From Bacteriovorax sp. BAL6_X (GTDB taxonomy: Bacteria > Bdellovibrionota > Bacteriovoracia > Bacteriovoracales > Bacteriovoracaceae), in NCBI RefSeq assembly GCF_000443995.1, contig NZ_AUMC01000009.1:62001-126000 (forward strand): a stretch of DNA of 64,000 nt. The letters run 5' to 3'. The position numbers and the translations under genes were made by a program. Positions 31,074 to 52,585 of this stretch are shown here, piece by piece. The notes under the pieces are model-generated. The model worked only from the letters and a program-made list of their open reading frames with translations. It did no database searches and was not told the DNA's origin. Positions within the stretch are counted from its first letter, which is position 1, and each line of letters opens with the position of its first letter.

Positions 31074-31840
31074 TAGCTCAACTCTTTATTTTTGAAAACA
31101 AAAGCATTAATGAATGAAAGCACCAAGATATAAGTAACACCATATAGATAACTATTAATGATATTTTGACTTGAGACAAGTTCAGCATTGAAAACAAAAG
31201 GTTTGTAATTAAGTAAATTCAAGTCAGGCAAAACTGCTTTATAGAGCCTAAGAATTAGTTCTAATCCTTCTCGACTTTTTACAAAAGACAAACTAGAGAT
31301 ATGTGTTATTGCATGACCAACAAAATATATAACAACAGTATTAATAACACTAAGTGCACGTGAAGTTATTAAACTAAAAAACAGAACTACTAAAAATAAA
31401 AGAATTGATTCTAAAATCCCTAAAAACAGCGAATTAATAATAATACTATCCAAAACTCCACCACGAATTAAATAAACCACGAGAGAAGTTCCAAAAATGA
31501 TTAAAGCACTTAGAACTAGAATCGAAGAAACACCCAAAATCTTACCTAATAAAAACTTAACTCTTGAAATAGGACGAGACAGAGTTATGTAAATAGTTCT
31601 AGATTCAATTTCATCAGAAAGTACATTTACACCTACAAAAATAGCCAATAGATTTGCGGCCAAAGATGCTCCACCAAGACCGAAATCAATTGATATCCTC
31701 AAAACATTCCCATAAGAAAATTCTGAGGTTATATAACTTAAAGTTAAAACAAAGAGAGCAATCCATAGAGTAAGATAAAGAACCCTACTCTTAACGATAT
31801 CTTTAAATGTAAATTTTGCGATTGTTAATATATTATTCAT
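31073..31840 (-). CDS. ABC-2 type membrane permease
   Basis: 255 residues with six predicted membrane helices, starting at about 20 and ending with SYLYGVTYILVLSFINAFVFK. The ETDSRTIYITLSRPISRVKFLLGKILG-type segment (here DEIESRTIYITLSRPISRVKFLLG, about 75-98) is typical of ABC-2 permeases of the NosY/YbhR kind. It pairs with the next gene (4-base overlap). Substrate is unknown. Such pairs often lie near pilA in myxobacteria (pilGHI), where they affect pilus export; that is known context, not seen here directly. Confidence 0.85.
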   Translation of the reverse strand: MNNILTIAKFTFKDIVKSRVLYLTLWIALFVLTLSYITSEFSYGNVLRISIDFGLGGASLAANLLAIFVGVNVLSDEIESRTIYITLSRPISRVKFLLGKILGVSSILVLSALIIFGTSLVVYLIRGGVLDSIIINSLFLGILESILLFLVVLFFSLITSRALSVINTVVIYFVGHAITHISSLSFVKSREGLELILRLYKAVLPDLNLLNYKPFVFNAELVSSQNIINSYLYGVTYILVLSFINAFVFKNKELS

Positions 31841-32694
31841 TTATTTAACCGATATACAATTTCTTCTAGAGACGAGGTTTCTCTAATTAATTTTGATATT
31901 ATTGCTCCAGACTCAATTAGTTCTAGCATTTTCTTATCTTTAAGTGATTCCTCCACAATTAATTCACAGTCCTTGATTCCATCATTATACTTTATAACAA
32001 ATTTATTACTTGTATTTTGAGAAACTAATTCCTTGATTGGACCATTATAAATAATATTTCCACTCTCTAGAACTACGACATCATGACAAACTTCTTCAAC
32101 ATCATTTACAATATGTGAAGAAAAGAAAACACCAACACCCTCTTCATTAACTTCTTTAATAACATCTTTAAACTCTTTACGACCAATTGGATCCAATCCA
32201 GAAAGTGGCTCATCTAAAATAATAAGACGTGGATTATGTAGAAGTACAGAAACAAACCCAAGACGTTGCAACATACCTTTAGAGTAGCCTTTAATTTTTC
32301 TATCTAAGGCAAACTTTATTTCTAGCTTAGTCGCCCATTTTTCTATATTTTTATCTATTGTTTCTTTATCAATCTCTTGTAATTCACCACAATAAGTTAA
32401 GAATTCATGTCCTGTGAGATTCTGATAATAAAATGGACGCTCAGGCATATAACCAATAAGTTTCCTTACTTCATCTTCAGTCCAATCAATATCTAAAATC
32501 TTAACTGAGCCTGTATTTGGTTTAATGAATCCAAGTATTATTTTAATTAATGTTGTTTTTCCAGCACCATTTGCACCCAAAAAACCAACAATCTTTCCAT
32601 CATTAAGTTCAAAATTAACATCATGTAATGCCACGAAATCTTTATTCCAGAAATCTTTCTTAAACGATTTCGATATATTTTTACAAATTAACAT
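31837..32694 (-). CDS. ABC transporter ATP-binding protein
   Basis: 285 residues from ATG 32694, chosen because the domain begins MLICKNISKSF there and AAGG lies 6 bases upstream; an upstream in-frame ATG at 32790 would add 32 unrelated residues and run into the divergent gene. Walker A GANGAGKTT, Q-loop, signature YSKGM (a weak LSGGQ form), Walker B LIILDEPLSGLD and H-loop SSH are all present. A C-terminal 80-residue domain follows. It partners the ABC-2 permease; in Myxococcus a similar pair (PilH/PilI) sits in the pil locus. Confidence 0.9.
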   Translation of the reverse strand: MLICKNISKSFKKDFWNKDFVALHDVNFELNDGKIVGFLGANGAGKTTLIKIILGFIKPNTGSVKILDIDWTEDEVRKLIGYMPERPFYYQNLTGHEFLTYCGELQEIDKETIDKNIEKWATKLEIKFALDRKIKGYSKGMLQRLGFVSVLLHNPRLIILDEPLSGLDPIGRKEFKDVIKEVNEEGVGVFFSSHIVNDVEEVCHDVVVLESGNIIYNGPIKELVSQNTSNKFVIKYNDGIKDCELIVEESLKDKKMLELIESGAIISKLIRETSSLEEIVYRLNK

Positions 32695-32723
32695 AGAAGC
32701 CTTTTTATTTTTTTTAATACCAG

Positions 32724-32729
32724 TATAAT
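32724..32729 (+). promoter_or_regulatory. Consensus -10 hexamer just before the TPR-like gene
   Basis: TATAAT lies 5 bases before ATG 32735 and 11 before the in-frame ATG 32741. Initiation would be at about 32736, so the mRNA may be leaderless or start translation at 32741. The -35 region (CTTTTT) is poor. No Shine-Dalgarno sequence is visible for either start. Confidence 0.4.
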
Positions 32730-32734
32730 CAGAT

Positions 32735-33403
32735 ATGCTCATGAAGAAAACACAACTTGCAAATAAATTCATTCCACTGATCCTATTCACTTTTTTAGTA
32801 GGTATTAACCAAATGCTTTCATTTAGAAAGCCTATTAATCCTGAGTTATTTACTACCTTAAACAGTGACTTTATAAAGGTTATATCATTTGGAAATTACC
32901 GCTTTATTTCCAGCTACTACTGGACCAAAACACTACTGGATGCTGATGTTGAGCACGTGAAAAGCGGAGAGAAATCTTGGCTATATTATCGCTTCAAACT
33001 AATAGCTGACCTAGACAGAGGGTTTTATGAGAACTACCTTCATGGTGGTATTTATTTATCGATTATTAAAGATGATATCATAGGCGCAGAAATAATCTTC
33101 AATAGAGGTTTGGAAGTTTTTCCAAATGACTATCGCCTAATGTATAATGCTGCATTCAACTATCACTTCCAACTTAGAGACTATAATAACTCACTTATTT
33201 TGTATCAAAAGATTCAACAAAGTCCATATGCAACAAATTTCATTATACTTCCAAGGTTAATAAAAGAAGCAAAGGATAAGAAGAAAACTAAAGAATCCCA
33301 TATTCAACTTTTAATGTTACAGATGAATAAAACAAAAGACAGTAAAGAAAGAGAGATTTTACGAAAGAAAATAGAAGAGATAAAGAAGGCCTCAAATAAA
33401 TGA
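32735..33403 (+). CDS. Membrane-anchored TPR-like protein in the pilus locus
   Basis: 222 residues. Residues about 10-30 form a signal anchor. The rest is helical with TPR-like units: YENYLHGGIYLSIIKDDIIGAEIIFNRGLEVFPNDYRLMYNAAFNYHFQLRDYNNSLILYQKIQQSP. The C-terminus is a charged helix (SKEREILRKKIEEIKKASNK). It is divergent from the ABC pair, just upstream of which its promoter lies, and convergent with pilA. In Myxococcus a TPR protein (PilG-type or Tgl) lies here too, but similarity at sequence level is not established. Confidence 0.72.
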   Translation: MLMKKTQLANKFIPLILFTFLVGINQMLSFRKPINPELFTTLNSDFIKVISFGNYRFISSYYWTKTLLDADVEHVKSGEKSWLYYRFKLIADLDRGFYENYLHGGIYLSIIKDDIIGAEIIFNRGLEVFPNDYRLMYNAAFNYHFQLRDYNNSLILYQKIQQSPYATNFIILPRLIKEAKDKKKTKESHIQLLMLQMNKTKDSKEREILRKKIEEIKKASNK

Positions 33404-41633: not shown

Positions 41634-43420
41634 TCCTTACGATTATTATTTCCATCTGAAGTTGTGTCGATAAATTTCTTCTGTAGTTGTGAATCATCAT
41701 TCATAATTTGCTTAAAGACTCCATTTGCTTTCCTCATACGCTTCTTCTTTTTGGCCTGATCTTCAAGTTCTTTCCACTGTTGCTGCTGAGTCTTTTTCTT
41801 ATTCTTTTCATTTTTATCATTATTCTTTTCAGACTTATTTTGATCTTTCTTTTCATTACCTTTATCAGATTCTTTTTGATCTTTTTTATGATCTTCTTGA
41901 CCCTTTTGTCCTTGCTTTTTTTGATCTTGATTACTATCTTTATTTTTTTGACCATCTTTCTTTTTCTGCTGTTGGTCTTGATTCTTGCTATCTTTATTAT
42001 CCTTATTATCTTTACTCTTTTCTTGTTTCTTCTTATCTTGTTCTTGTTTCTTCTTATCCTGCTTCTGCTTTTGGAGAGCAAATTTAATTTGCTTTTTAAC
42101 TGCATCTGCAAGCTCTTTATTGTCCGCATTTTTTTCCAAAATATACTTATAAAGATTAACTGCATCGACAAATTGATTATTTTTTAAGAGTGCTGTTGCA
42201 TAATTAAACAGGTCAGTAGGTGCTTCATCTTCATAATTATTCAGTGTTTCACTATAGATCTCTGCTGCTTGTTTTTGGCCATCCTTTTGTTTTAAAAAAA
42301 GCTCTGCCAGCTTTAGCTTTTCATCTTTTGAAATTTTACCCGCTCTCATTTTATCAACGAGCATTTCTTGTTTTGGATCAACTTCTACTTCTTCTTGTGC
42401 TAAGGGACTGTTAGCAGGAACAATCAATAAACAAACTAAAATTATCATGACTATCGGTTTGAATGTCTTGAAACGCCCCAAAAAAACAGATAAAACATAA
42501 AGAAAAATACTGACAACAATTAGCCAATATCCTAGCACAGGCCTTGATCTCAATGTTCCTTTGGTGAAAGAGTTCAAATGAATATCTTTAAAGAACCCTA
42601 GAATTTCTTTAGTTGGCAAACTATATGATTCCACAAACCATACTTTTGCATATTTTGATTTATTAACGAGATCTTCAAAAAACTTTTTATTTAGCTTAGA
42701 AATAATTTCAACGCTGTTGAACTTTTTATAACCAAGAAAGTTTCCACGTTTTCCACGCCTAGGTATTTTTCCGCCCTCGTCTGTTCCAACACCTACGATT
42801 GCCAAACTTATTTCACTAGGAATATCAACCTCAATATTAGAGTGCTCTTCACCATCTGTGATTAGTAGAATATTTCCTTTTGAAAATCCATCACTTGTTT
42901 TAAAGAATTGGAATGCTTCCTTTAGCGCAAGACTAACATTTGACCCGCCTTCTGGTGCTGCACTCAACATTGTACCCAGGCGGGATTCTAATATATCGAC
43001 ATCATCCGTAAATGGTACTATTTTACGTTGAATATCAGAGAAAATACTTAAAGCAACTTGATGGCCATAAGCATTTTTAACAAAGTGCTTTGCAATAATA
43101 GCTGCCTTCGAAATTCGATTAGGTCTAATATCTTCAACTAGCATACTTAGAGAATTATCAATCAAGATTAGTGTACGTTGATTAGGAATATTTGATTCAA
43201 CAAGTTCTTCGGGACCACGAAGATCTCCAAGAGAAAACGCGAAACCAAAAAAGGCTAAGGTATAACACAGCATTGATAATTTACTGATTGGTCTAGAATT
43301 AAAATTCCAAACCTGTTTAACTATTTTAAAAAAACGTTTTCTCAATAAGTATAAGAGTGAAATAAATATAGCAACCGATATAATAGAAATGATCAATAGC
43401 TTCGTATTAACAAAATCCAT
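41627..43420 (-). CDS. batB: BatB-BatC fusion: von Willebrand A domain plus TPR and KQD-rich tail
   Basis: 597 residues. Two membrane helices flank the vWA region at the N-terminus (about 10-25 and 48-64). The MIDAS-like start is LILIDNSLSMLVEDI (DxSxS) near 84-98, then ILLITDGEEHSN. Helices at about 297-335 follow. Residues about 345-455 are TPR-like (ADLFNYATALLKNNQFVDAVNLYKYILEKNADN). Residues about 455-575 are an almost pure Lys/Gln/Asp/Asn tract. BatB and BatC are separate genes in Bacteroides-type operons; here they are one. The tract would be highly extended, location unclear. Confidence 0.85.
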   Translation of the reverse strand: MDFVNTKLLIISIISVAIFISLLYLLRKRFFKIVKQVWNFNSRPISKLSMLCYTLAFFGFAFSLGDLRGPEELVESNIPNQRTLILIDNSLSMLVEDIRPNRISKAAIIAKHFVKNAYGHQVALSIFSDIQRKIVPFTDDVDILESRLGTMLSAAPEGGSNVSLALKEAFQFFKTSDGFSKGNILLITDGEEHSNIEVDIPSEISLAIVGVGTDEGGKIPRRGKRGNFLGYKKFNSVEIISKLNKKFFEDLVNKSKYAKVWFVESYSLPTKEILGFFKDIHLNSFTKGTLRSRPVLGYWLIVVSIFLYVLSVFLGRFKTFKPIVMIILVCLLIVPANSPLAQEEVEVDPKQEMLVDKMRAGKISKDEKLKLAELFLKQKDGQKQAAEIYSETLNNYEDEAPTDLFNYATALLKNNQFVDAVNLYKYILEKNADNKELADAVKKQIKFALQKQKQDKKKQEQDKKKQEKSKDNKDNKDSKNQDQQQKKKDGQKNKDSNQDQKKQGQKGQEDHKKDQKESDKGNEKKDQNKSEKNNDKNEKNKKKTQQQQWKELEDQAKKKKRMRKANGVFKQIMNDDSQLQKKFIDTTSDGNNNRKDW

Positions 43421-44427
43421 TATGCAACTTCCCTTAAGTATAAACGTCGAGTTCCCTCAACAAACATTAAAAGCAAAACACCGACAAGTAAAAACTTATA
43501 ATAATCCTCTTGATAAATAATACGACCTTTAATCTCAAGCCCTTTTCTTTCGAGCTTATTAATCTCTGAAAGAACTTCATTTAAGGAGTCATTATCAGAA
43601 GCAACAAAATCTTTTCCACCTGATAGTTCTGCAATCTTTTGTAGAGTTTCAAAGTCCATACTTGCGCCAGGCATATTCTGGTACCGCTTTCTCCCAAAAG
43701 CATCACGACCAATTGGTAACTTCGCATCTGGATCACCACCGATACCAATCGTATAAATTTTTATTCCTAACTCTTTTGCTTTTTCTGCTGCTTGCATAGG
43801 AGACATTAGGCCAGCGTTAGCACTCCCATCAGTTAGTAAAACAATTGACTTATTTTCAGCAACACTCGTTTCTGATCTAGCGAGGGCGAGTCCAAGCGCA
43901 TCACCTATATTTGTCCCCGAACCTAGAAATCCTATATTAATTTGTTCTACAGATTGTTCTACAAGCTTTAAGTCTGTAGTTACTGGAATTAAAGTAAATA
44001 CCTTATCTCCAAACATGATTATACCGATACGATCAACTGGAGATAGTTCAACAAACTTCCTTATCTGACTTTTTGCAGCTTCTAAACGATTAGGAGGAAA
44101 GTCTTCCGCTAACATTGATCTAGACACATCAACAACAAAGTAAATATCGTTAATTTCTTTTTTTACGTTACTCTTCCCCATAGGAGTCTTTGGTCCCATT
44201 AAAGCAAAACTAATAAGCGCCCATGATAGAAATGAGATAAGAAATAAAATCCCTCTTAAAAATGATGGCCCAGACTTCAGGCTATATCGAGGAGGAAGGA
44301 TTAGTTCTCCTTTTTTGAAGATTGCAAAAAAATCAATACACCAAAATAGAAAGCCTATAATTCCTACGATGAATAAATACTTATTGTGAAAGATATAATT
44401 ACTTAACAATGATATTCTCCTTTGCAC
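43420..44427 (-). CDS. batA: BatA-like von Willebrand A domain protein
   Basis: 335 residues. N-terminal helices (about 14-32 and 55-75) and a C-terminal helix (about 310-328) bracket a vWA domain with an intact MIDAS: FVVDVSRSMLAEDFPPNRLEAAK (DxSxS near 97-101), GTNIGDAL (Thr near 172) and LLTDGSANAG (Asp near 200). MIDAS sites bind Mg through a ligand Asp or Glu. It is the third membrane gene after moxR-DUF58. It overlaps its upstream neighbour by 29 bases. Confidence 0.9.
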   Translation of the reverse strand: MQRRISLLSNYIFHNKYLFIVGIIGFLFWCIDFFAIFKKGELILPPRYSLKSGPSFLRGILFLISFLSWALISFALMGPKTPMGKSNVKKEINDIYFVVDVSRSMLAEDFPPNRLEAAKSQIRKFVELSPVDRIGIIMFGDKVFTLIPVTTDLKLVEQSVEQINIGFLGSGTNIGDALGLALARSETSVAENKSIVLLTDGSANAGLMSPMQAAEKAKELGIKIYTIGIGGDPDAKLPIGRDAFGRKRYQNMPGASMDFETLQKIAELSGGKDFVASDNDSLNEVLSEINKLERKGLEIKGRIIYQEDYYKFLLVGVLLLMFVEGTRRLYLREVA

Positions 44428-45181
44428 GATTATGGAGATCAGAAATTGTTATATCATCATCATGGGTCCAACTTCTCTTATATTGAAGCTCATTAATCTT
44501 ATTTAAGTAGTCCTTAAAAAACTCTGCGTTTTCAAATATTTCTTCATAATTTATTTTTTTCGAATAGATATCCTCATGTTTTTCACGAGTATCAGCATTT
44601 TTAAATAGATCAATCTTTTCGGCCAAAACTCTTTTTGCACTCTGCTTTATATTGTAAACATGAAACCCATAAAATGAAGCCAAACATACAATTAGTAGTA
44701 CTATTATATATATGACATACTCGACAAAAGATTTTTCCTCTTCTATTTTTTTATCAAACACTATGAAATCTTGTTGTGTAACTTGAGTATCTTGAAAATT
44801 GATACCAGAAAATGAAACACCTAGGGCCATACCACGATAGTCCCAAATTTTTGGAAAAGAATTCTTCGGTGTTGCAACTAAAACTCCACTAGCTTCAATG
44901 ATATAGTACTGCGGATTTGTTTTTAAAAAATACTGTTTATTAATTTTTGATATCTTAACAATGTCAGCGAAGTCACGTGACATTAGATTATTGTTAATAT
45001 CTTCATCAATTACATCTGTTATAGGATAAATTGTAAGTTTGAAATCACGAATTTCACCAACACTCCAAGCCTTTTCATCACCTTCAAGACTCAGTTCTAC
45101 TTTAGTATCAAGAGCTTTCGCATTAAAAGTAAATATCATTAGAACTATTGAAAGCAGTGAATAAAAGAAATGTAGTCTCAT
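44399..45181 (-). CDS. Membrane-anchored protein of the Bat operon, unnamed
   Basis: 260 residues. A signal peptide (cut likely after AKA) precedes a beta domain (about 24-150, TKVELSLEGDEKAWSVGEIRDFKLTIYPITDV), a membrane helix (about 157-178) and a helical cytoplasmic tail. This layout matches the small membrane protein (DUF4381-like) found between DUF58 and batA genes elsewhere; sequence identity cannot be tested. It is coupled on both sides: one base with the DUF58 gene and 29 bases with batA. Confidence 0.7.
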   Translation of the reverse strand: MRLHFFYSLLSIVLMIFTFNAKALDTKVELSLEGDEKAWSVGEIRDFKLTIYPITDVIDEDINNNLMSRDFADIVKISKINKQYFLKTNPQYYIIEASGVLVATPKNSFPKIWDYRGMALGVSFSGINFQDTQVTQQDFIVFDKKIEEEKSFVEYVIYIIVLLIVCLASFYGFHVYNIKQSAKRVLAEKIDLFKNADTREKHEDIYSKKINYEEIFENAEFFKDYLNKINELQYKRSWTHDDDITISDLHNRAKENIIVK

Positions 45182-46026
45182 TATAACATCTCCTTAACAA
45201 AATCTTCCAAGTAGCGATCTCCTACATTTATATCCTTTAGTCTGAACCCAAAATCTAAAGGTTCAACTTTACCTTTAAGTCTGGCATCTACTTTACCGCT
45301 TCCCTTCCCAGCAATACGTCCAATCACAGAGAAACGAAACTCATTTGAAGTATCAAGTGGACAAAGTAATCTAAAGGCATGAACATGTTTTCGTGCAGTT
45401 AGTCTCTTCAAGGTTTCCGGCGATAAGAACTCATAGAAGTCACTAAGGATAACAACTTCTCTTTTCTTATAAAATTCTCTTACTAACTCAGCATCAAACT
45501 TTTCAAAGTTGCGTTCTTTTTGAGAAACTAGATATTCTGTATCAATTTCTCCAACCGTATTTAAAACGTTAGACTTCCTTAGTGCATCAACAAATGCCAC
45601 AAGCCCTGCTTCACCTCTTTTCTTTTGAACTCTTACAACACGATCATTCAAACAAATTATTGTTTCAATATAGTCATGAGTTTTTTCAGAGAGTAAGTAG
45701 AGTAATGAGATAATTTCAAAAGCAGCAGCTAGTTTTGACTTCCCATTGTGTCCGATAACCATTCCAGGGCTACAATCAAGTAATATTGTAATCTCAACAT
45801 TTCTTTCTTCTTCAAATGTTTTGATATATGGCGTATTTGTTTTAGCGACCATTTTCCAATCAATAAAACGTACGTCATCACCATGAACATACACCTGATG
45901 TTCCTTAAACTTCAATCCCGTACCTCTGAAGTGAGATTTAAGCATACCAATGGAAAATGAGTTTGCTCTTTTGAACAAACTATTTTTCATATTTTGAACA
46001 ATTTGATGTACTTCAAGTGTTTTCAT
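45181..46026 (-). CDS. DUF58 domain protein of the moxR-bat operon
   Basis: 281 residues. The DUF58 motif is clear at about 28-60: HFRGTGLKFKEHQVYVHGDDVRFIDWKMVAKT, then EERNVEITILLDCSPGM, a vWA-like strand where the usual DxSxS is DCSPG. No membrane helix, so it is cytoplasmic. MoxR-type ATPases act with this family as vWA-partner chaperones. It starts one base after moxR ends, and it overlaps the next gene by a single base. Confidence 0.9.
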   Translation of the reverse strand: MKTLEVHQIVQNMKNSLFKRANSFSIGMLKSHFRGTGLKFKEHQVYVHGDDVRFIDWKMVAKTNTPYIKTFEEERNVEITILLDCSPGMVIGHNGKSKLAAAFEIISLLYLLSEKTHDYIETIICLNDRVVRVQKKRGEAGLVAFVDALRKSNVLNTVGEIDTEYLVSQKERNFEKFDAELVREFYKKREVVILSDFYEFLSPETLKRLTARKHVHAFRLLCPLDTSNEFRFSVIGRIAGKGSGKVDARLKGKVEPLDFGFRLKDINVGDRYLEDFVKEML

Positions 46027-46027
46027 A

Positions 46028-46975
46028 TTAAATCAATTTCTGAGCAATCTTAACTGCTAAGTCCCTTGGGTTAATTCCATCAATAGATGCCTCATAAGTT
46101 AAAATAATTCTGTGTCCTAAAACAGAAGCAACTACTTTCATTACATCATCCGGCGTGACATAATCACGTTGGGCCATAAATGCGTTAAAACGTCCTAACT
46201 TTTGTAACCAGATAGCAGCACGAGGTGATGCTCCCGCTTGCACAAGTCCTTTAAAATCAGGAGAGAAGTGTTTGTCACCCGGTCTTGTTGCTCTTACTAT
46301 CTTAATGATTAAATCCTTCATCTTGTCATCTACATAAACTTTATCAATCTCTGCACGTATTGAAAGAATATCATCAGTTGAAAGAATAGAGCTTAAATCT
46401 TGTTTAATATTCTCTAAATCTAGAATTGACTTCTCTGCTTCAAAATCAGGATAATTAACGCTTACTTTCATCATAAATCGATCAAGTTGTGCTTCTGGAA
46501 GAGGATAAGTTCCTTCTTGCTCAATAGGGTTCTGTGTTGCAAGTACAACAAATGGACTTGATAGCTTATGAGTAGAATCACCAATCGTTACTTGCTTTTC
46601 GGCCATGGCCTCTAATAGTGCTGATTGTACCTTGGCCGGTGATCTATTAATTTCATCGGCAAGTAAAAGTTGTGTAAAGATTGGGCCAAACTTAGTAGAA
46701 AATTCTTCTTTTTGTTGCGAATAAACCATTGTTCCGACAAGGTCAGATGGAAGTAGGTCTGGTGTAAACTGAACTCTTTTAAATGTTAAGTCACAAAGCT
46801 TACTCATTGTTGATACAGATAATGTTTTACCTAAACCAGGCATACCTTCAATAAGGAGATGTCCTTCACAGACTAATGCTGCAATAATACTATCTAGCAT
46901 TTCGTCTTGACCATATACAATTCTCTTGGCCCTATCTAAAACACTATTAACCTTCTGTCTTGAATTATCAGTCAT
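46028..46975 (-). CDS. moxR: MoxR-type AAA+ ATPase
   Basis: 315 residues, MoxR proper subfamily. Walker A GMPGLGKT (about 44-51), Walker B LLLADEINRSPAKVQSALLEAM (about 109-130), sensor 1 ATQNPIEQEGTYPLPEAQLDRF and the GASPRAAIWL arginine segment near 255 are intact. MoxR proteins remodel or metal-load vWA proteins; here BatA and BatB are the likely clients. It overlaps rlmI by 8 bases and leads the Bat operon. Confidence 0.95.
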   Translation of the reverse strand: MTDNSRQKVNSVLDRAKRIVYGQDEMLDSIIAALVCEGHLLIEGMPGLGKTLSVSTMSKLCDLTFKRVQFTPDLLPSDLVGTMVYSQQKEEFSTKFGPIFTQLLLADEINRSPAKVQSALLEAMAEKQVTIGDSTHKLSSPFVVLATQNPIEQEGTYPLPEAQLDRFMMKVSVNYPDFEAEKSILDLENIKQDLSSILSTDDILSIRAEIDKVYVDDKMKDLIIKIVRATRPGDKHFSPDFKGLVQAGASPRAAIWLQKLGRFNAFMAQRDYVTPDDVMKVVASVLGHRIILTYEASIDGINPRDLAVKIAQKLI

Positions 46976-48140
46976 TTCTTTCCACCTTATAAGCTAAATA
47001 TTTTATATAATTTGATTTTGAATCTAATCGACTAATAGGATGATCCAGGCCTTGAATACCTGTATCAATTAACCTAATTGTAAGGTCATTCTTCTGAGCA
47101 GCTTTAACAACACATTGATCTAATTCATTCATTGAGATATTTTGAGTGCATGATGCTGCCGCTAGAACTCCACCCTTATTAATCATTTTAAAAATACGAG
47201 TATATAATTTTTCGTAACCACTAAGTGCGGCTTTCTTATCTTTATAGCTCTTACTAAATGCTGGAGGATCACAAACGATTACATCATAGCTTGCACCTTC
47301 ACTTACTTTTTCATCTAAAAACTTAAAGACGTCCTGACGCGTGAAACTCCCACGATTGCTAAAGTTATTAAGCTCAACATGATTGCTAACCACTTCTGCC
47401 ATATTTGCTTGGTCAACAAACTCAACCTGTTCCACTCCAGCACGTAAGAGGTGCAATCCCCATGACCCCACATAAGTAAATAGATCTAGTCCTTTTTTAT
47501 AGTTTTGCCCTGTTCTTTTAATAAGTTCTTCAAACTTTCTACGATTTTCACGGTGATCATAATAGTATCCCACCTTTTGCATCATCTCTCTTTTGATCTG
47601 ATATTTAAAACCAGTTTCTTCAATTTCGATTAGCTCAGGTAGTTCATCACTTTCAAAAACCGGAAGTTCTTCGATATCACGATACTTCTTATTATCAAGA
47701 AGTATCACTTCTTTATCGAGAAGCTTTTGTATATGTGTCTTTATTTCATTTCGGTAAGTGTCCATTCCTGCAGTATTTATCTGAACAATGGCGCAGTTCT
47801 TATAGCCATCAAGTATCAGTCCAGGAAGTCCGTCTTCATCACCATAAATCAAACGAGCATCTTGTCCATAACCTATTTCAGAGCGATAGTTGATTGCATC
47901 TTCGATAGCTTTTGCCACATATTCCCAAGGTTCAAGTGATGATTTGAATATCGCAATATTCTTCTTCCGTGTTGAGTTTGGATTAACAAATCCAATATAT
48001 TTATCTTTTAAATGACTAAAGCTACACCACTCCCCAGGACGATGTGAACGGAGTGAGTCTTCAATATCGTTTTCAGATAAATGGATCACTTTACTTTCAA
48101 AGTAAAGTCTAACTTTTTTATTAATTTCTATTTGTCTCAT
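46968..48140 (-). CDS. rlmI: 23S rRNA m5C methyltransferase, RlmI-like
   Basis: 390 residues. The PUA-like N-terminus (about 1-75, KVIHLSENDIEDSLRSHRPGEWCSF) precedes an EEHEAD-type insert and a Rossmann methyltransferase: KVGYYYDHRENRRKFEEL, LDLFTYVGSWGLHLLRAGVEQVEFVDQ (SAM motif I), VCDPPAFSKSYKDK (motif IV) and AAASCTQNIS (motif VI with the catalytic Cys). RlmI in E. coli makes m5C1962 in 23S rRNA. It is next to the moxR gene and after a secreted protein, all minus strand. Confidence 0.9.
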   Translation of the reverse strand: MRQIEINKKVRLYFESKVIHLSENDIEDSLRSHRPGEWCSFSHLKDKYIGFVNPNSTRKKNIAIFKSSLEPWEYVAKAIEDAINYRSEIGYGQDARLIYGDEDGLPGLILDGYKNCAIVQINTAGMDTYRNEIKTHIQKLLDKEVILLDNKKYRDIEELPVFESDELPELIEIEETGFKYQIKREMMQKVGYYYDHRENRRKFEELIKRTGQNYKKGLDLFTYVGSWGLHLLRAGVEQVEFVDQANMAEVVSNHVELNNFSNRGSFTRQDVFKFLDEKVSEGASYDVIVCDPPAFSKSYKDKKAALSGYEKLYTRIFKMINKGGVLAAASCTQNISMNELDQCVVKAAQKNDLTIRLIDTGIQGLDHPISRLDSKSNYIKYLAYKVERND

Positions 48141-48920
48141 TTATAGACCTATAATCTTTTTGGCTTGCCCAGTATTGATTTGATAGTTTTGAATTTTCAA
48201 ATCAAGTTTACCTAGCTCAACCTTCTTATCCCCTGTCACAACATATGACACAGCTTTGATATTACTTGGTAATCCGAATGTTCCAAATTTATCATAGTCA
48301 ATTTCAATTTCTTTAATAACAGAAGAGGCACCCCTTCCCTCTGAAATAGAAATTTGAGAAATTACGCTTCTTCCTTTTGCCCATGACTTCTTGGCGTAAG
48401 AAAATGACGTTTTCGTATGTAACTGAGGACTACTTGATTCAATTTCTTTAATTTGTCCACTTGAGTATAGCTCAATACTTAAATCTAGTAGTTCTGCCTT
48501 ATCTTTAACTCGAATGTAACGACTATTATTTTTTGGATCTTTTTTGAATGCACTCTGTTCAAGAGGTGTCGTTAAGTTTTTCGCTAACACCAACTCTACA
48601 TACGGCTTAATTTTTGAGATTAAAGTTTGCTTTAATAAATCAAAACCCTTATCTGGTAATCCCTCAACTCTAATTCTAATATTACTTGGATAAACCCAAT
48701 ATACGCGATAGTAAACATCATCTGGTTCTAAGGCCGTATTTGACCTTACGTATTTTTCTAAGTTTGGCTCACGAATATCAAAAAACAGGTCCTGTATTTG
48801 TCCTTCTAATGGAGTATACGTTCTTAACTTGTGATCGTTAAAAATATTACTATTATTAGAAAAAACAGATGAAACAGAAAGCAATAAAACAATAATTAGA
48901 GATAAGTTAAATTTCAGCAT
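48141..48920 (-). CDS. Secreted LolA-like (uncertain) protein
   Basis: 259 residues, signal peptide cut likely after FSN (about 22). The rest is beta-rich with strands such as YYRVYWVYPSNIRIRVEGLPDKGFDLLKQTLISKIKPYVELVL, then NSRYIRVKDKAELLDLSIELYSSGQIKEIE and KEIEIDYDKFGTFGLPSNIKAVSYVVTGDKKVELGKLDLKI. A half-barrel lipoprotein carrier of LolA/LolB type is possible, but the signature is weak. Its ribosome site (AAGGA) is inside a hairpin. It lies between rqcH and rlmI; the function is not known. Confidence 0.6.
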   Translation of the reverse strand: MLKFNLSLIIVLLLSVSSVFSNNSNIFNDHKLRTYTPLEGQIQDLFFDIREPNLEKYVRSNTALEPDDVYYRVYWVYPSNIRIRVEGLPDKGFDLLKQTLISKIKPYVELVLAKNLTTPLEQSAFKKDPKNNSRYIRVKDKAELLDLSIELYSSGQIKEIESSSPQLHTKTSFSYAKKSWAKGRSVISQISISEGRGASSVIKEIEIDYDKFGTFGLPSNIKAVSYVVTGDKKVELGKLDLKIQNYQINTGQAKKIIGL

Positions 48921-48923
48921 ATT

Positions 48924-48954
48924 ATGTCCTTTTAACTTATTTTAAAAGGGACAT
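48924..48954 (-). promoter_or_regulatory. Hairpin that covers a ribosome binding site
   Basis: Plus-strand ATGTCCTTTTAA (48924-48935) is the inverse of TTAAAAGGGACAT (48942-48954) with one bulged base. On the minus-strand mRNA the AAAAGGA ribosome site of the secreted protein gene forms the second arm, 6 bases before its ATG. It sits between the rqcH stop (48961) and that ATG, with no T tract, so it is more likely translational control than a terminator. Confidence 0.6.
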
Positions 48955-48960
48955 AGACCA

Positions 48961-50262
48961 TTACCAACTAGTTGAAATTATTTCCTTCCAATTGACTTTA
49001 GGGAGAATCAAATGCTTCTCTTTCTTATAAATGACTTTTCCAGCAGCTCCCTTTACTCCTTTGAGATTTTCTACTTGAGTAAAAATAACAGGTATTTGAT
49101 CAGCGTTAAATTCACTATAATCGGCCAATATTGAGGCTACAACACTGTATTTATCGAAGTCAAAGACATCTAAATTTTTTGCAATAACGTGAGCACTCTT
49201 ATCGCCATCGAGATGAAACCAAATATCGCCTTTAGTTGACCATTTACTACGGATATAATCATTTCCTTTTGTATTTAGGCCAACAGCAATTGAGATATTA
49301 TTCCATCTAAAGATTGAGTGATCATCTGACTTATTCACTTCAGTACTCTTTTGAGCTACCTTTTTCCAAACAGGCACATTAATCTTTTCTTTAACAAATA
49401 CGACTTTCTTAGACTCTATTTCTTTAATGACATCCTCAAGACGTTTCTCAAGAAACTCTTCACCCTTTCTAAGTTTTTTTATTTTAGTAAAGATTACATT
49501 TTTCTTTTGATAATAACTAAGGCCATAATCAAATCTTGCCTTAAGACTCTTATACTTGAAGATATGTTCGCTCAAATCTAATTCATCATTGATTAGTTTT
49601 TTTTCTATTTCATGTCTGACTTGGCAATTTTCTAAATCTTTTTCAATAAACTTCTTTTTTCTCATCAACTTCTTATTATAAGTTGTCTCAGCTTTTTTAT
49701 TGAATACTTCAATTTCTTCTAAAACGAGTTTCTTCTCATTAATATCTTTATTATCTAGCTGCTTGCGACCTAGTTCATTAAAAATATCGAAGAAATTTTC
49801 AAACTCAAATATCTGTTTTTTATTTGATTGCCAAGGGGAGAAATGAAGCCTTCTCCCTTCATTTAGATATATATAAGAGAAGAAGAGTTGACGTCCTTTC
49901 CAAAAGAGCAAGAGATTACTCTTGTCAGAGAACTTTAAATTTAAGCATTTATCTTTCGTGTCGACTTCAATCTCACTTAAACGTGCGTTTCTAATATTTG
50001 ATCTTAAAAACTCTAAAAACTGATCCCTAGTTATTCGATATTCAGAAGGTATGGATGCAATTGAGTCCCAAATTCCACAATGCTCTCCGCCTCTTCCCAA
50101 TGTAATACAAAGATTCTTACCTCTGAGTCTCAGCTGTAATAAAACAAGCTTTCCAGAGGAAAATATTTTTTGAATTTTTGGGTTTGTCGACATACCGTTT
50201 TCAAATAATTGCGCATTAATTTTATCGACATTTCGCCCTAGCTCTGAGAAATTTAAATTCAT
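48961..50262 (-). CDS. rqcH: Compact NFACT-family protein, RqcH/Rqc2-like
   Basis: 433 residues from ATG 50262 (an upstream ATG at 50334 adds 24 residues inside mutS2). The end has the NFACT-R domain: RWNNISIAVGLNTKGNDYIRSKWSTKGDIWFHLDGDKSAHVIAKNL (about 315-360), then the VKGAAGKVIYKKEKHLIL segment. A long coiled coil (about 170-300) joins it to a divergent NFACT-N domain (about 1-130). Bacillus RqcH is about 570 residues, so the HhH part is shortened here. The tRNA-contacting Asp-Arg of that family appears as KDK. Rqc2/RqcH binds stalled 50S-tRNA and adds Ala tails; activity here is unproven. Confidence 0.8.
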   Translation of the reverse strand: MNLNFSELGRNVDKINAQLFENGMSTNPKIQKIFSSGKLVLLQLRLRGKNLCITLGRGGEHCGIWDSIASIPSEYRITRDQFLEFLRSNIRNARLSEIEVDTKDKCLNLKFSDKSNLLLFWKGRQLFFSYIYLNEGRRLHFSPWQSNKKQIFEFENFFDIFNELGRKQLDNKDINEKKLVLEEIEVFNKKAETTYNKKLMRKKKFIEKDLENCQVRHEIEKKLINDELDLSEHIFKYKSLKARFDYGLSYYQKKNVIFTKIKKLRKGEEFLEKRLEDVIKEIESKKVVFVKEKINVPVWKKVAQKSTEVNKSDDHSIFRWNNISIAVGLNTKGNDYIRSKWSTKGDIWFHLDGDKSAHVIAKNLDVFDFDKYSVVASILADYSEFNADQIPVIFTQVENLKGVKGAAGKVIYKKEKHLILPKVNWKEIISTSW

Positions 50263-52585
50263 GAATAATCCAACAATTTTGTCACAAACACTGAGTAATA
50301 TTGACTGGAGCAAGATTGCTTCTGAAATTATCACCCATGCAAGGTTTCAGGTTAATAAGAATATTATAGAACATAATCCAAAGATATTCGAATCTGAACA
50401 ACTAAACGAACATTTTTATGACTTAAACGAGATTATTAGGAAAATTGACGAAACAGGGAATCTTGGTGATTTCTTCTTTAGCAATTTGAGAGATAGTGAT
50501 GAGAACCACAATGCCTTAAATTATATTGCAAAAGGTGGCGTCGCAACATTAGATCAGCTTAATTTCTTAGCTAATACGATCGAAAATCTTTTTTCAACTA
50601 AACGAGTCTTAAACTTTGGCCACTATCTAGCTTTCCTAGATGAATTAGTTAATAAAACACAGAGGCTTAAGCAAAAATTTATTAATCCATTTAGAAAGTT
50701 TGTGGATGCTGATGGAAGTGTTCACCTTGAAAAACACCCTATCATTGCGCCTCTTATTCAAGAGCAAATAAGTCTAGAAAGAAGAATTCGTGAAACTATT
50801 AACTTTATTTTAAAAGACGAAGATATTTCAAAACGTCTTCAAATGGACACTTTTGATATTATTAATGAAAGATTTGTCATTCCTATTAGAAGCGATTCTT
50901 ATCGAAGTGACTTAGGTAGTATTGTAGCAAGATCATCAACAGGTAACACACTCTTTGTTGAACCTGTTGCAACAAGGAAAATGTCAAACGAGCTAATCGA
51001 AATTAACTCAAAGATTGATTACGCAATTTCTCAAATTTGCAAAGGTTATTGCGATCTGATCAATAATGATCTTACGACAATGCGTGCTGTTTACTCATTC
51101 TTTATCGAGCTAGACTATACATATACATTAGCTAGTTATTCACATACTAAGGATTTCTGCTCCCCAGAGGTTAGCCAAGATGGAACGACTAGCTTAGTGG
51201 ACTTCTACCATCCCCTTATTGAAAACTGTGTTCGAAATACGATTGAAGTTGAAAGTAAAATGAGGGGGATTATCATCTCAGGGCCAAACACAGGGGGGAA
51301 AACTGTTTCCATTAAAAGTATTGTTATTGCGCACCTATTTTTAAAGCTTGGATTATTTATTCCAGCGCAAAAAGCGAAGCTACAGTACAAAAGCGATGTG
51401 TTTTATTTTGATAGTGACTATCAAGACTTAGAAATGGGTTTAAGTTCATTTGCGGGAGAAGTTCAAGTTATACTATCAATGCTTGAGAATATCCAAAATG
51501 ATTCACTTATTGCAGCGGATGAAATCTTTAATTCGACATCATCAGATGAAGCATCATCGCTGGCCTACTCAATTATTAACTATGTCACTAAAGAGCTGGG
51601 TTGTGACGTTTTAATTTCAACTCACCACCAACTCTTAAAAACAAAGATACAAGAGAGTAAAGAATTTATTTCTGCCCATGTAGGCTATGACTTTGACAAT
51701 AATATTCCTACTTACAAGCTAATCATTGGAACTCCGGGTTCATCGATGGCACTGGAAATCTTTAATCGCTTAAGTAAGAAGCATAATATACCTGCATTCA
51801 TATTAGATGATGCAAAAAAGATGCTTGATACAAAATATGTAACCTACGAAAGACTTCTACAAGACCTTTCCAAGAAACAAGAAAGAATCAATAAAACACT
51901 TAAAGAAAATATACAGCTTAATCACGAACTCAAAAATCAAAAAAAATCTCAAGAAGGTATTCTCTTTCTAGAGAAACAAAGGGCCTATGATCAATATGAG
52001 AAAGAAATTAAAAAAATTATCAAAGGTCTTAATGATGTCAAAACCAAAAGTTTAAGTAATGAGATATCTTCTCTAAATAAACAATATGAAAGGCTCAAGC
52101 CCAGTAAAATTGAAAAACCCAAAGAGGAAAGGCAAGTTGCTTCAGAGATAAAAGTAGGTTCACGTTATTTTTGTGATCGTTTAAACACGACTTGCGTTGT
52201 CTCTGAAATTAAGGGCAAGAATTGTACTGTCGAAGTAAATGGTAAAAAGATTTCTGTACCAAAGACATCCCTCTTTGATCAACAAGGTATCAATAATAAA
52301 AAGCCTCAAAAGTCCAAAAAAATTGAAATTAATGTTTTCAAAACAATTAACTATACTACCGAAGTTAATTGTCGTGGTATGCGCTTAAATGAATTTCAGC
52401 AAAAGGTTTTCTCTTGTATAGACGATCTTAGAATGGGCCATATTCCATATTTAATTATTGTCCACGGACATGGAGATGGAACTTTAAAGAAGTGGCTTAG
52501 AAATGAACTTAGAAGACAGCGAGATTTAAGTTGGTCACCGGACGAAGGTAACGATGGGGCAACACGTATTGATCTTACTCAATAG
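50261..52585 (+). CDS. mutS2: MutS2 (RqcU-type) ATPase with KOW and Smr domains
   Basis: 774 residues. Core and clamp helices (1-300), ATPase with Walker A GPNTGGKTVSIK (about 344-355) and Walker B SLIAADEIFNSTSSDEAS (about 418-435; usual DELGAGTDPxE), coiled coil (about 525-600), KOW-like domain (about 630-670, VGSRYFCDRL...) and C-terminal Smr (about 700-774, VNCRGMRLNEF and IIVHGHGDGTLKKWL). MutS2 in Bacillus splits collided ribosomes ahead of RqcH. The Smr Asp of LDLHG is Asn. The start ATG overlaps the rqcH start by two bases. No strong ribosome site is visible. Confidence 0.93.
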   Translation: MNNPTILSQTLSNIDWSKIASEIITHARFQVNKNIIEHNPKIFESEQLNEHFYDLNEIIRKIDETGNLGDFFFSNLRDSDENHNALNYIAKGGVATLDQLNFLANTIENLFSTKRVLNFGHYLAFLDELVNKTQRLKQKFINPFRKFVDADGSVHLEKHPIIAPLIQEQISLERRIRETINFILKDEDISKRLQMDTFDIINERFVIPIRSDSYRSDLGSIVARSSTGNTLFVEPVATRKMSNELIEINSKIDYAISQICKGYCDLINNDLTTMRAVYSFFIELDYTYTLASYSHTKDFCSPEVSQDGTTSLVDFYHPLIENCVRNTIEVESKMRGIIISGPNTGGKTVSIKSIVIAHLFLKLGLFIPAQKAKLQYKSDVFYFDSDYQDLEMGLSSFAGEVQVILSMLENIQNDSLIAADEIFNSTSSDEASSLAYSIINYVTKELGCDVLISTHHQLLKTKIQESKEFISAHVGYDFDNNIPTYKLIIGTPGSSMALEIFNRLSKKHNIPAFILDDAKKMLDTKYVTYERLLQDLSKKQERINKTLKENIQLNHELKNQKKSQEGILFLEKQRAYDQYEKEIKKIIKGLNDVKTKSLSNEISSLNKQYERLKPSKIEKPKEERQVASEIKVGSRYFCDRLNTTCVVSEIKGKNCTVEVNGKKISVPKTSLFDQQGINNKKPQKSKKIEINVFKTINYTTEVNCRGMRLNEFQQKVFSCIDDLRMGHIPYLIIVHGHGDGTLKKWLRNELRRQRDLSWSPDEGNDGATRIDLTQ

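Follow-up and report, generated by a model that had tools for sequence, protein, structure and literature searches.

The mutS2 (rqcU) gene and an rqcH-like gene of Bacteriovorax sp. BAL6_X, from the predatory family Bacteriovoracaceae, stand head to head with start codons that overlap by two bases, and this start-codon fusion is kept in most relatives, which is a new point; a conserved fusion of the rqcH and mutS2 start codons, or a physical tie between the genes, was not found in the limited set of literature searched. The whole stretch of DNA analysed, 64,000 nucleotides long, is referred to as the window. The reading that we favour, at a probability of about one in two, is that rqcH and mutS2 form an ancient, functionally matched head-to-head pair whose promoters are embedded in each other's gene and probably face each other, with the two outputs tied together. 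The identities of the genes, their arrangement, its conservation and the synonymous constraint are observed; we infer the promoters, their facing geometry and transcriptional interference at the junction, and with them the mutual control of the two genes that an earlier note on this DNA had proposed.

In Bacillus subtilis, MutS2 splits collided ribosomes and acts upstream of alanine tailing by RqcH (PMC10897456). Among genomes that encode RqcH, 97% also encode MutS2, and rqcH has been counted in five of six Bdellovibrionota, a phylum in which MutS2 has been counted too (PMC11633108). RqcH in Bdellovibrionota is already known and its co-occurrence with MutS2 across bacteria is published; the family-wide start fusion is independent genomic support for the two proteins acting together outside the Firmicutes, and the fused pair offers a natural test of whether the RqcH:MutS2 ratio matters.

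The plus-strand gene encodes MutS2

The plus-strand gene (50261-52585) encodes a protein of 774 aa which, by its profile match, is a full MutS2: it matches the TIGR01069 equivalog at 424 bits against a cut-off of 400, and a phmmer comparison with B. subtilis MutS2 gives 2e-58. Pfam finds MutS_V and Smr domains, the latter (PF01713) at residues 703-772 (52367-52576, plus strand), and a Walker A motif, GPNTGGKT, lies at residues 341-348 (51281-51304, plus strand); the protein is a MutS-type ATPase that has Smr and lacks the mismatch domains. It resembles B. subtilis MutS2/RqcU, the ATPase that splits collided ribosomes, in its full-length TIGR01069 match, Walker A and Smr, but differs in the KOW/MSSS region (PF20297, residues 632-671), which scores 14 bits against a Pfam cut-off of 26.8. 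This is the sole full MutS2 of the window genome; the second match covers only part of a 907-aa frame, which we take to be MutS1.

The minus-strand gene encodes a shortened RqcH relative

The minus-strand gene (48961-50262) encodes a protein of 433 aa that, by its domain, profile and structure matches, is a genuine but divergent and shortened RqcH relative. The RqcH-like identity suggested earlier is upheld by NFACT-R, by the RqcH profile and by the top structural matches, but a Pfam search finds no match to PF05833 (NFACT_N) and the protein is short. PF05670 (NFACT-R) matches at residues 345-429, numbered from an upstream GTG, with E = 1.8e-5 and 25.7 bits, which is below the Pfam threshold of 29.8; it is above cut-off in 84 of 129 genomes of the class. 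A profile of 24 relatives searched against PDB finds B. subtilis RqcH at 8e-18, with a strong stretch that aligns family positions 192-435 to RqcH 293-560 and a weak N-terminal stretch (7.5 bits) that aligns 25-111 to 22-108.

An AlphaFold2 model of the protein, run with 34 sequences, has a mean pLDDT of 86.8 and a pTM of 0.51, and at this pTM the domain arrangement is to be taken as loose. The model runs from an NFACT-N-like fold through a low-confidence linker (172-183) and a coiled coil with hairpin to NFACT-R, and among PDB structures it is closest to 50S-bound RqcH, followed by NEMF and Rqc2, so that the structural prediction which the earlier note had proposed as a check came out in favour of RqcH; the N-terminal domains of PavA and FBPS also match. 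On the minus strand, the NFACT-N-like region would span residues 1-150 (49813-50262), the coiled coil and M-domain beta hairpin, placed by the model and by alignment to B. subtilis RqcH, residues 181-283 (49414-49722), and NFACT-R residues 311-433 (48964-49332). Alignment and model together indicate that NFACT-N is present in reduced form. No HhH domain is visible in the model between NFACT-N and the coiled coil, and the protein is therefore filed as a shortened NFACT/RqcH relative and not as a canonical RqcH.

Like B. subtilis RqcH (YloA; NEMF/Rqc2/FbpA family), the protein has NFACT-N, coiled coil/M hairpin and NFACT-R in identical order, but the B. subtilis protein has 570 aa, and about 185 of its residues (108-293), HhH included, are replaced by about 80 in the window protein. 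The DR motif, which reads tRNA-Ala in B. subtilis RqcH (PMC8373112), aligns at residues 97-98 with D104-K105 of the window protein (49948-49953, minus strand), a conservative change; the position is kept in most relatives, with DR in 63, DK in 4 and other residues in 13 of 80. A further difference from B. subtilis is that no small S4 (RqcP-like) protein was found in the window genome by search for the S4 family, the four S4 proteins present all being longer than 200 aa by open frame. Of these four, two were inspected over their whole length, and by eye one resembles TlyA and the other a pseudouridine synthase. Short RqcH forms, mostly of 400-560 aa by open frame, occur across the phylum and a 461-aa form is found in an Erysipelotrichaceae MAG, so shortness is not unique to this family. 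The HhH-less RqcH of Bacteriovoracaceae was likewise not found in the limited literature set searched, and an RqcH relative of this kind allows a test of which parts the tailing machine needs at a minimum.

The start-codon junction

Bases 50260-50263 read CATG, a palindrome that holds the mutS2 ATG on the plus strand (50261-50263) and the rqcH ATG on the minus strand (50262-50260), and the two-base overlap reported earlier is seen in both the ORF list and the sequence. An alternative rqcH start, a GTG at 50334, is in frame and would give a frame of 457 aa. It was rejected: among 80 relatives with fused starts, 53 have an rqcH frame that is open for less than the 72 nt needed upstream, and the N-termini across the family line up at the ATG, which is therefore the likely start. 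The earlier suggestion of a start at 50334 is thus improbable, whereas the remark that neither gene has a strong ribosome site holds across the family: 36 of 56 rqcH starts and 54 of 56 mutS2 starts have no match longer than 3 nt to the Shine-Dalgarno consensus. Neither start is predicted to fold in excess, as a structured RNA would.

The head-to-head arrangement across relatives

Relatives of the window genome, together with named genomes (Bacteriovorax, Halobacteriovoraceae, Bacteriovoracaceae), supplied 106 distinct rqcH loci. The earlier note would have been refuted had the minus-strand protein lacked an NFACT match or had the genes not been neighbours in related genomes; the match exists, and in most relatives the genes are neighbours: rqcH and mutS2 are head to head in 94 of the 106 Bacteriovoracaceae loci, and the remaining 12 comprise ten with no mutS2 nearby and two cut by contig ends. 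The junction is a shared CATG in 57 of the 94, an abutting CATATG in 23 and something else in 14, these last consisting of ten loci whose possible starts are separated by no more than about 10 nt, two in which the separation is 25 and 52 nt, and two that could not be placed, the mutS2 start lying outside the open frame. By one and the same lenient criterion, fused or abutting ATGs occur in 80 of 94 rqcH-mutS2 pairs but in only 1 of 31 further divergent pairs from these loci, which is more than chance, counted over relatives that are non-independent samples.

On the rqcH tree the junction labels are clustered and adjacency is absent from a few lineages, with counts that are approximate because the tree is a quick one with several long branches. 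The distribution is consistent with the head-to-head arrangement being ancestral in the family, and a two-base shift gave CATATG in one clade. Adjacency is not essential, since genomes without it persist: one such family member (G021) has mutS2 and rqcH on different contigs, and another (G012) has no full-length MutS2, only a partial match of 173 bits. In the latter genome, the stretch G012:C2:511681-512076 weakly resembles the KOW/Smr end of MutS2 and contains an internal stop, perhaps the remnant of a lost mutS2.

Outside the family, the genes stand head to head in two genomes of the phylum (L105 and L108), separated by 19 and 24 nt, and two others (L068 and L104) have them co-directional, rqcH then mutS2; the remaining loci from the same phylum have no mutS2 in the flank examined, which is short for some. 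Only 2 of 663 overlapping gene pairs in E. coli are divergent (PMC4161906). The pair described here resembles such bacterial divergent overlaps in that the coding sequences overlap start to start, but differs from these rare cases in that a single pair is overlapped family-wide.

Synonymous constraint and promoter-like signals

Synonymous identity was expressed relative to the codon-usage expectation, for which internal windows have a mean of about 1.07 and an SD of about 0.07. Both gene starts are under excess synonymous constraint in both junction groups: in the CATATG clade the values are 1.53/1.34 over rqcH codons 1-30 and 1.45/1.35 over mutS2 codons 16-45, and in the CATG group 1.52/1.42/1.28 over rqcH codons 1-45 and 1.28/1.29 over mutS2 codons 1-30. 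Within the window's own genus (five sequences) the constraint is within noise. Control genes at the same loci are mostly lower, although some are raised at the 5' end and one strongly so (1.89/1.35, with 1.89 in codons 1-15). We also note that in the CATATG clade (for example L119 and L121) the 3' end of rqcH, at codons ~385-444, has a constraint of 1.3-1.8 compared with 1.06 internally and holds a conserved GGTATGGTAATATAC-like block, possibly the promoter of the downstream gene.

With no intergenic space, each promoter must sit in the coding sequence of the partner, as the earlier note argued. Geometry and synonymous constraint speak for this, but the promoter sites are predicted ones and in the CATG group they exceed chance only weakly. 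Antisense sigma-70 scores were compared with synonymous shuffles for codons 0-40 and for internal segments, the latter having no excess. In codons 0-40 the CATATG clade has a mean z of 1.16 in mutS2 and 0.85 in rqcH, and the CATG group, to which the window belongs, a marginal z of 0.27 and 0.24 (se ~0.13, standard errors that understate the uncertainty because all sequences are related).

In the CATATG clade, an nTATAAT is conserved ~73-75 nt before the rqcH ATG, on the rqcH strand and within mutS2 codons, and a TTGACC...GATAAT-type site stands directly before the mutS2 ATG, in rqcH codons 3-15. A conserved Ile pair of MutS2 is written ATT/ATC-ATA in 22 of 23 sequences of this clade, though ATA is the least used of the Ile codons (285 of 1706). 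In the window, the promoter scan is at chance overall (2 sites against 1.8 expected from shuffles), and one predicted rqcH promoter, TTAACC-17-GATAAT inside mutS2 (50327-50355, minus strand), lies where the CATATG clade has its conserved TATAAT. A putative rqcH 5' leader of about 58 nt (50263-50320, minus strand), placed from this promoter, would be antisense to the first mutS2 codons. The scan finds no standard mutS2 promoter on the plus strand of the window.

A plausible mechanism and its alternatives

By homology to B. subtilis, MutS2 (RqcU) would split collided ribosomes and the shortened RqcH would then act on the resulting 50S-peptidyl-tRNA. A plausible scenario is that the intergenic space shrank to zero in Bacteriovoracaceae so that the control sequences of each gene lie in the coding start of the partner. 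In the best-supported clade rqcH transcription would begin inside mutS2, from the nTATAAT -10 box, and that of mutS2 would begin at the mutS2 ATG or close to it, from the TTGACC/GATAAT-type promoter in rqcH codons 3-15. From such facing promoters two polymerases may collide, and the rqcH leader would be antisense to the mutS2 start, so that transcription of one gene should disturb the other and tie their outputs. Excludon-type divergent transcripts (reviewed in PMC7154746) are similar in their overlapping antisense 5' ends, which are only predicted in the present case, but differ in that the overlap at this junction extends to the start codons of the two coding sequences. The stronger proposition, that this is a family-wide cis switch written in coding sequence, where facing promoters, collision and antisense leaders fix a ratio or impose mutual exclusion, seems to us unlikely.

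The chief rival, which explains much of the same evidence, is an overlap that is simply frozen: once the two ATGs had met, neither could change without harm to both genes, and purifying selection would hold them, with promoters embedded and no selected coupling of outputs. This is possible, although we lean against it. It accounts for the conservation of CATG at no added cost, the 19-24 bp that separate the genes in two other families point to stepwise closure, and both the two-base shift that yielded CATATG in one clade and the weakness of the promoter excess in the CATG group sit well with it. It leaves unexplained, however, why genes of the same pathway are adjacent across most of the family and why they are associated in other lineages of the phylum, where two families have them head to head and one has them co-directional. 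Embedded promoters are predicted by a frozen overlap as well, which differs from the tied head-to-head pair solely on coupling.

We consider it improbable that the constraint at the starts reflects translation initiation (open mRNA and N-terminal codon bias), with the promoters elsewhere, for example deep in the partner genes. Several control genes are indeed modestly raised in codons 1-30 and the initiation sites are weak, as this would have it, but the mutS2 excess in the CATATG clade falls at codons 16-45, not 1-15, and coincides with the conserved antisense TATAAT.

Genome and window context

The window genome (G000) has a tmRNA, and RQC would therefore work beside trans-translation. In the window, rqcH is the first in a run of minus-strand genes (43420-50262) that is possibly one operon; it is followed by genes for an unknown 259-aa protein, a SAM methyltransferase, a MoxR-type ATPase, a DUF58 protein and a protein that by eye resembles a von Willebrand A type. 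Naive gene calls give a second divergent pair in the window, at 31837-33403, in which an ABC transporter ATPase gene (31837-32772, minus strand) and a 222-aa frame with no Pfam match (32735-33403, plus strand) overlap by 38 nt.
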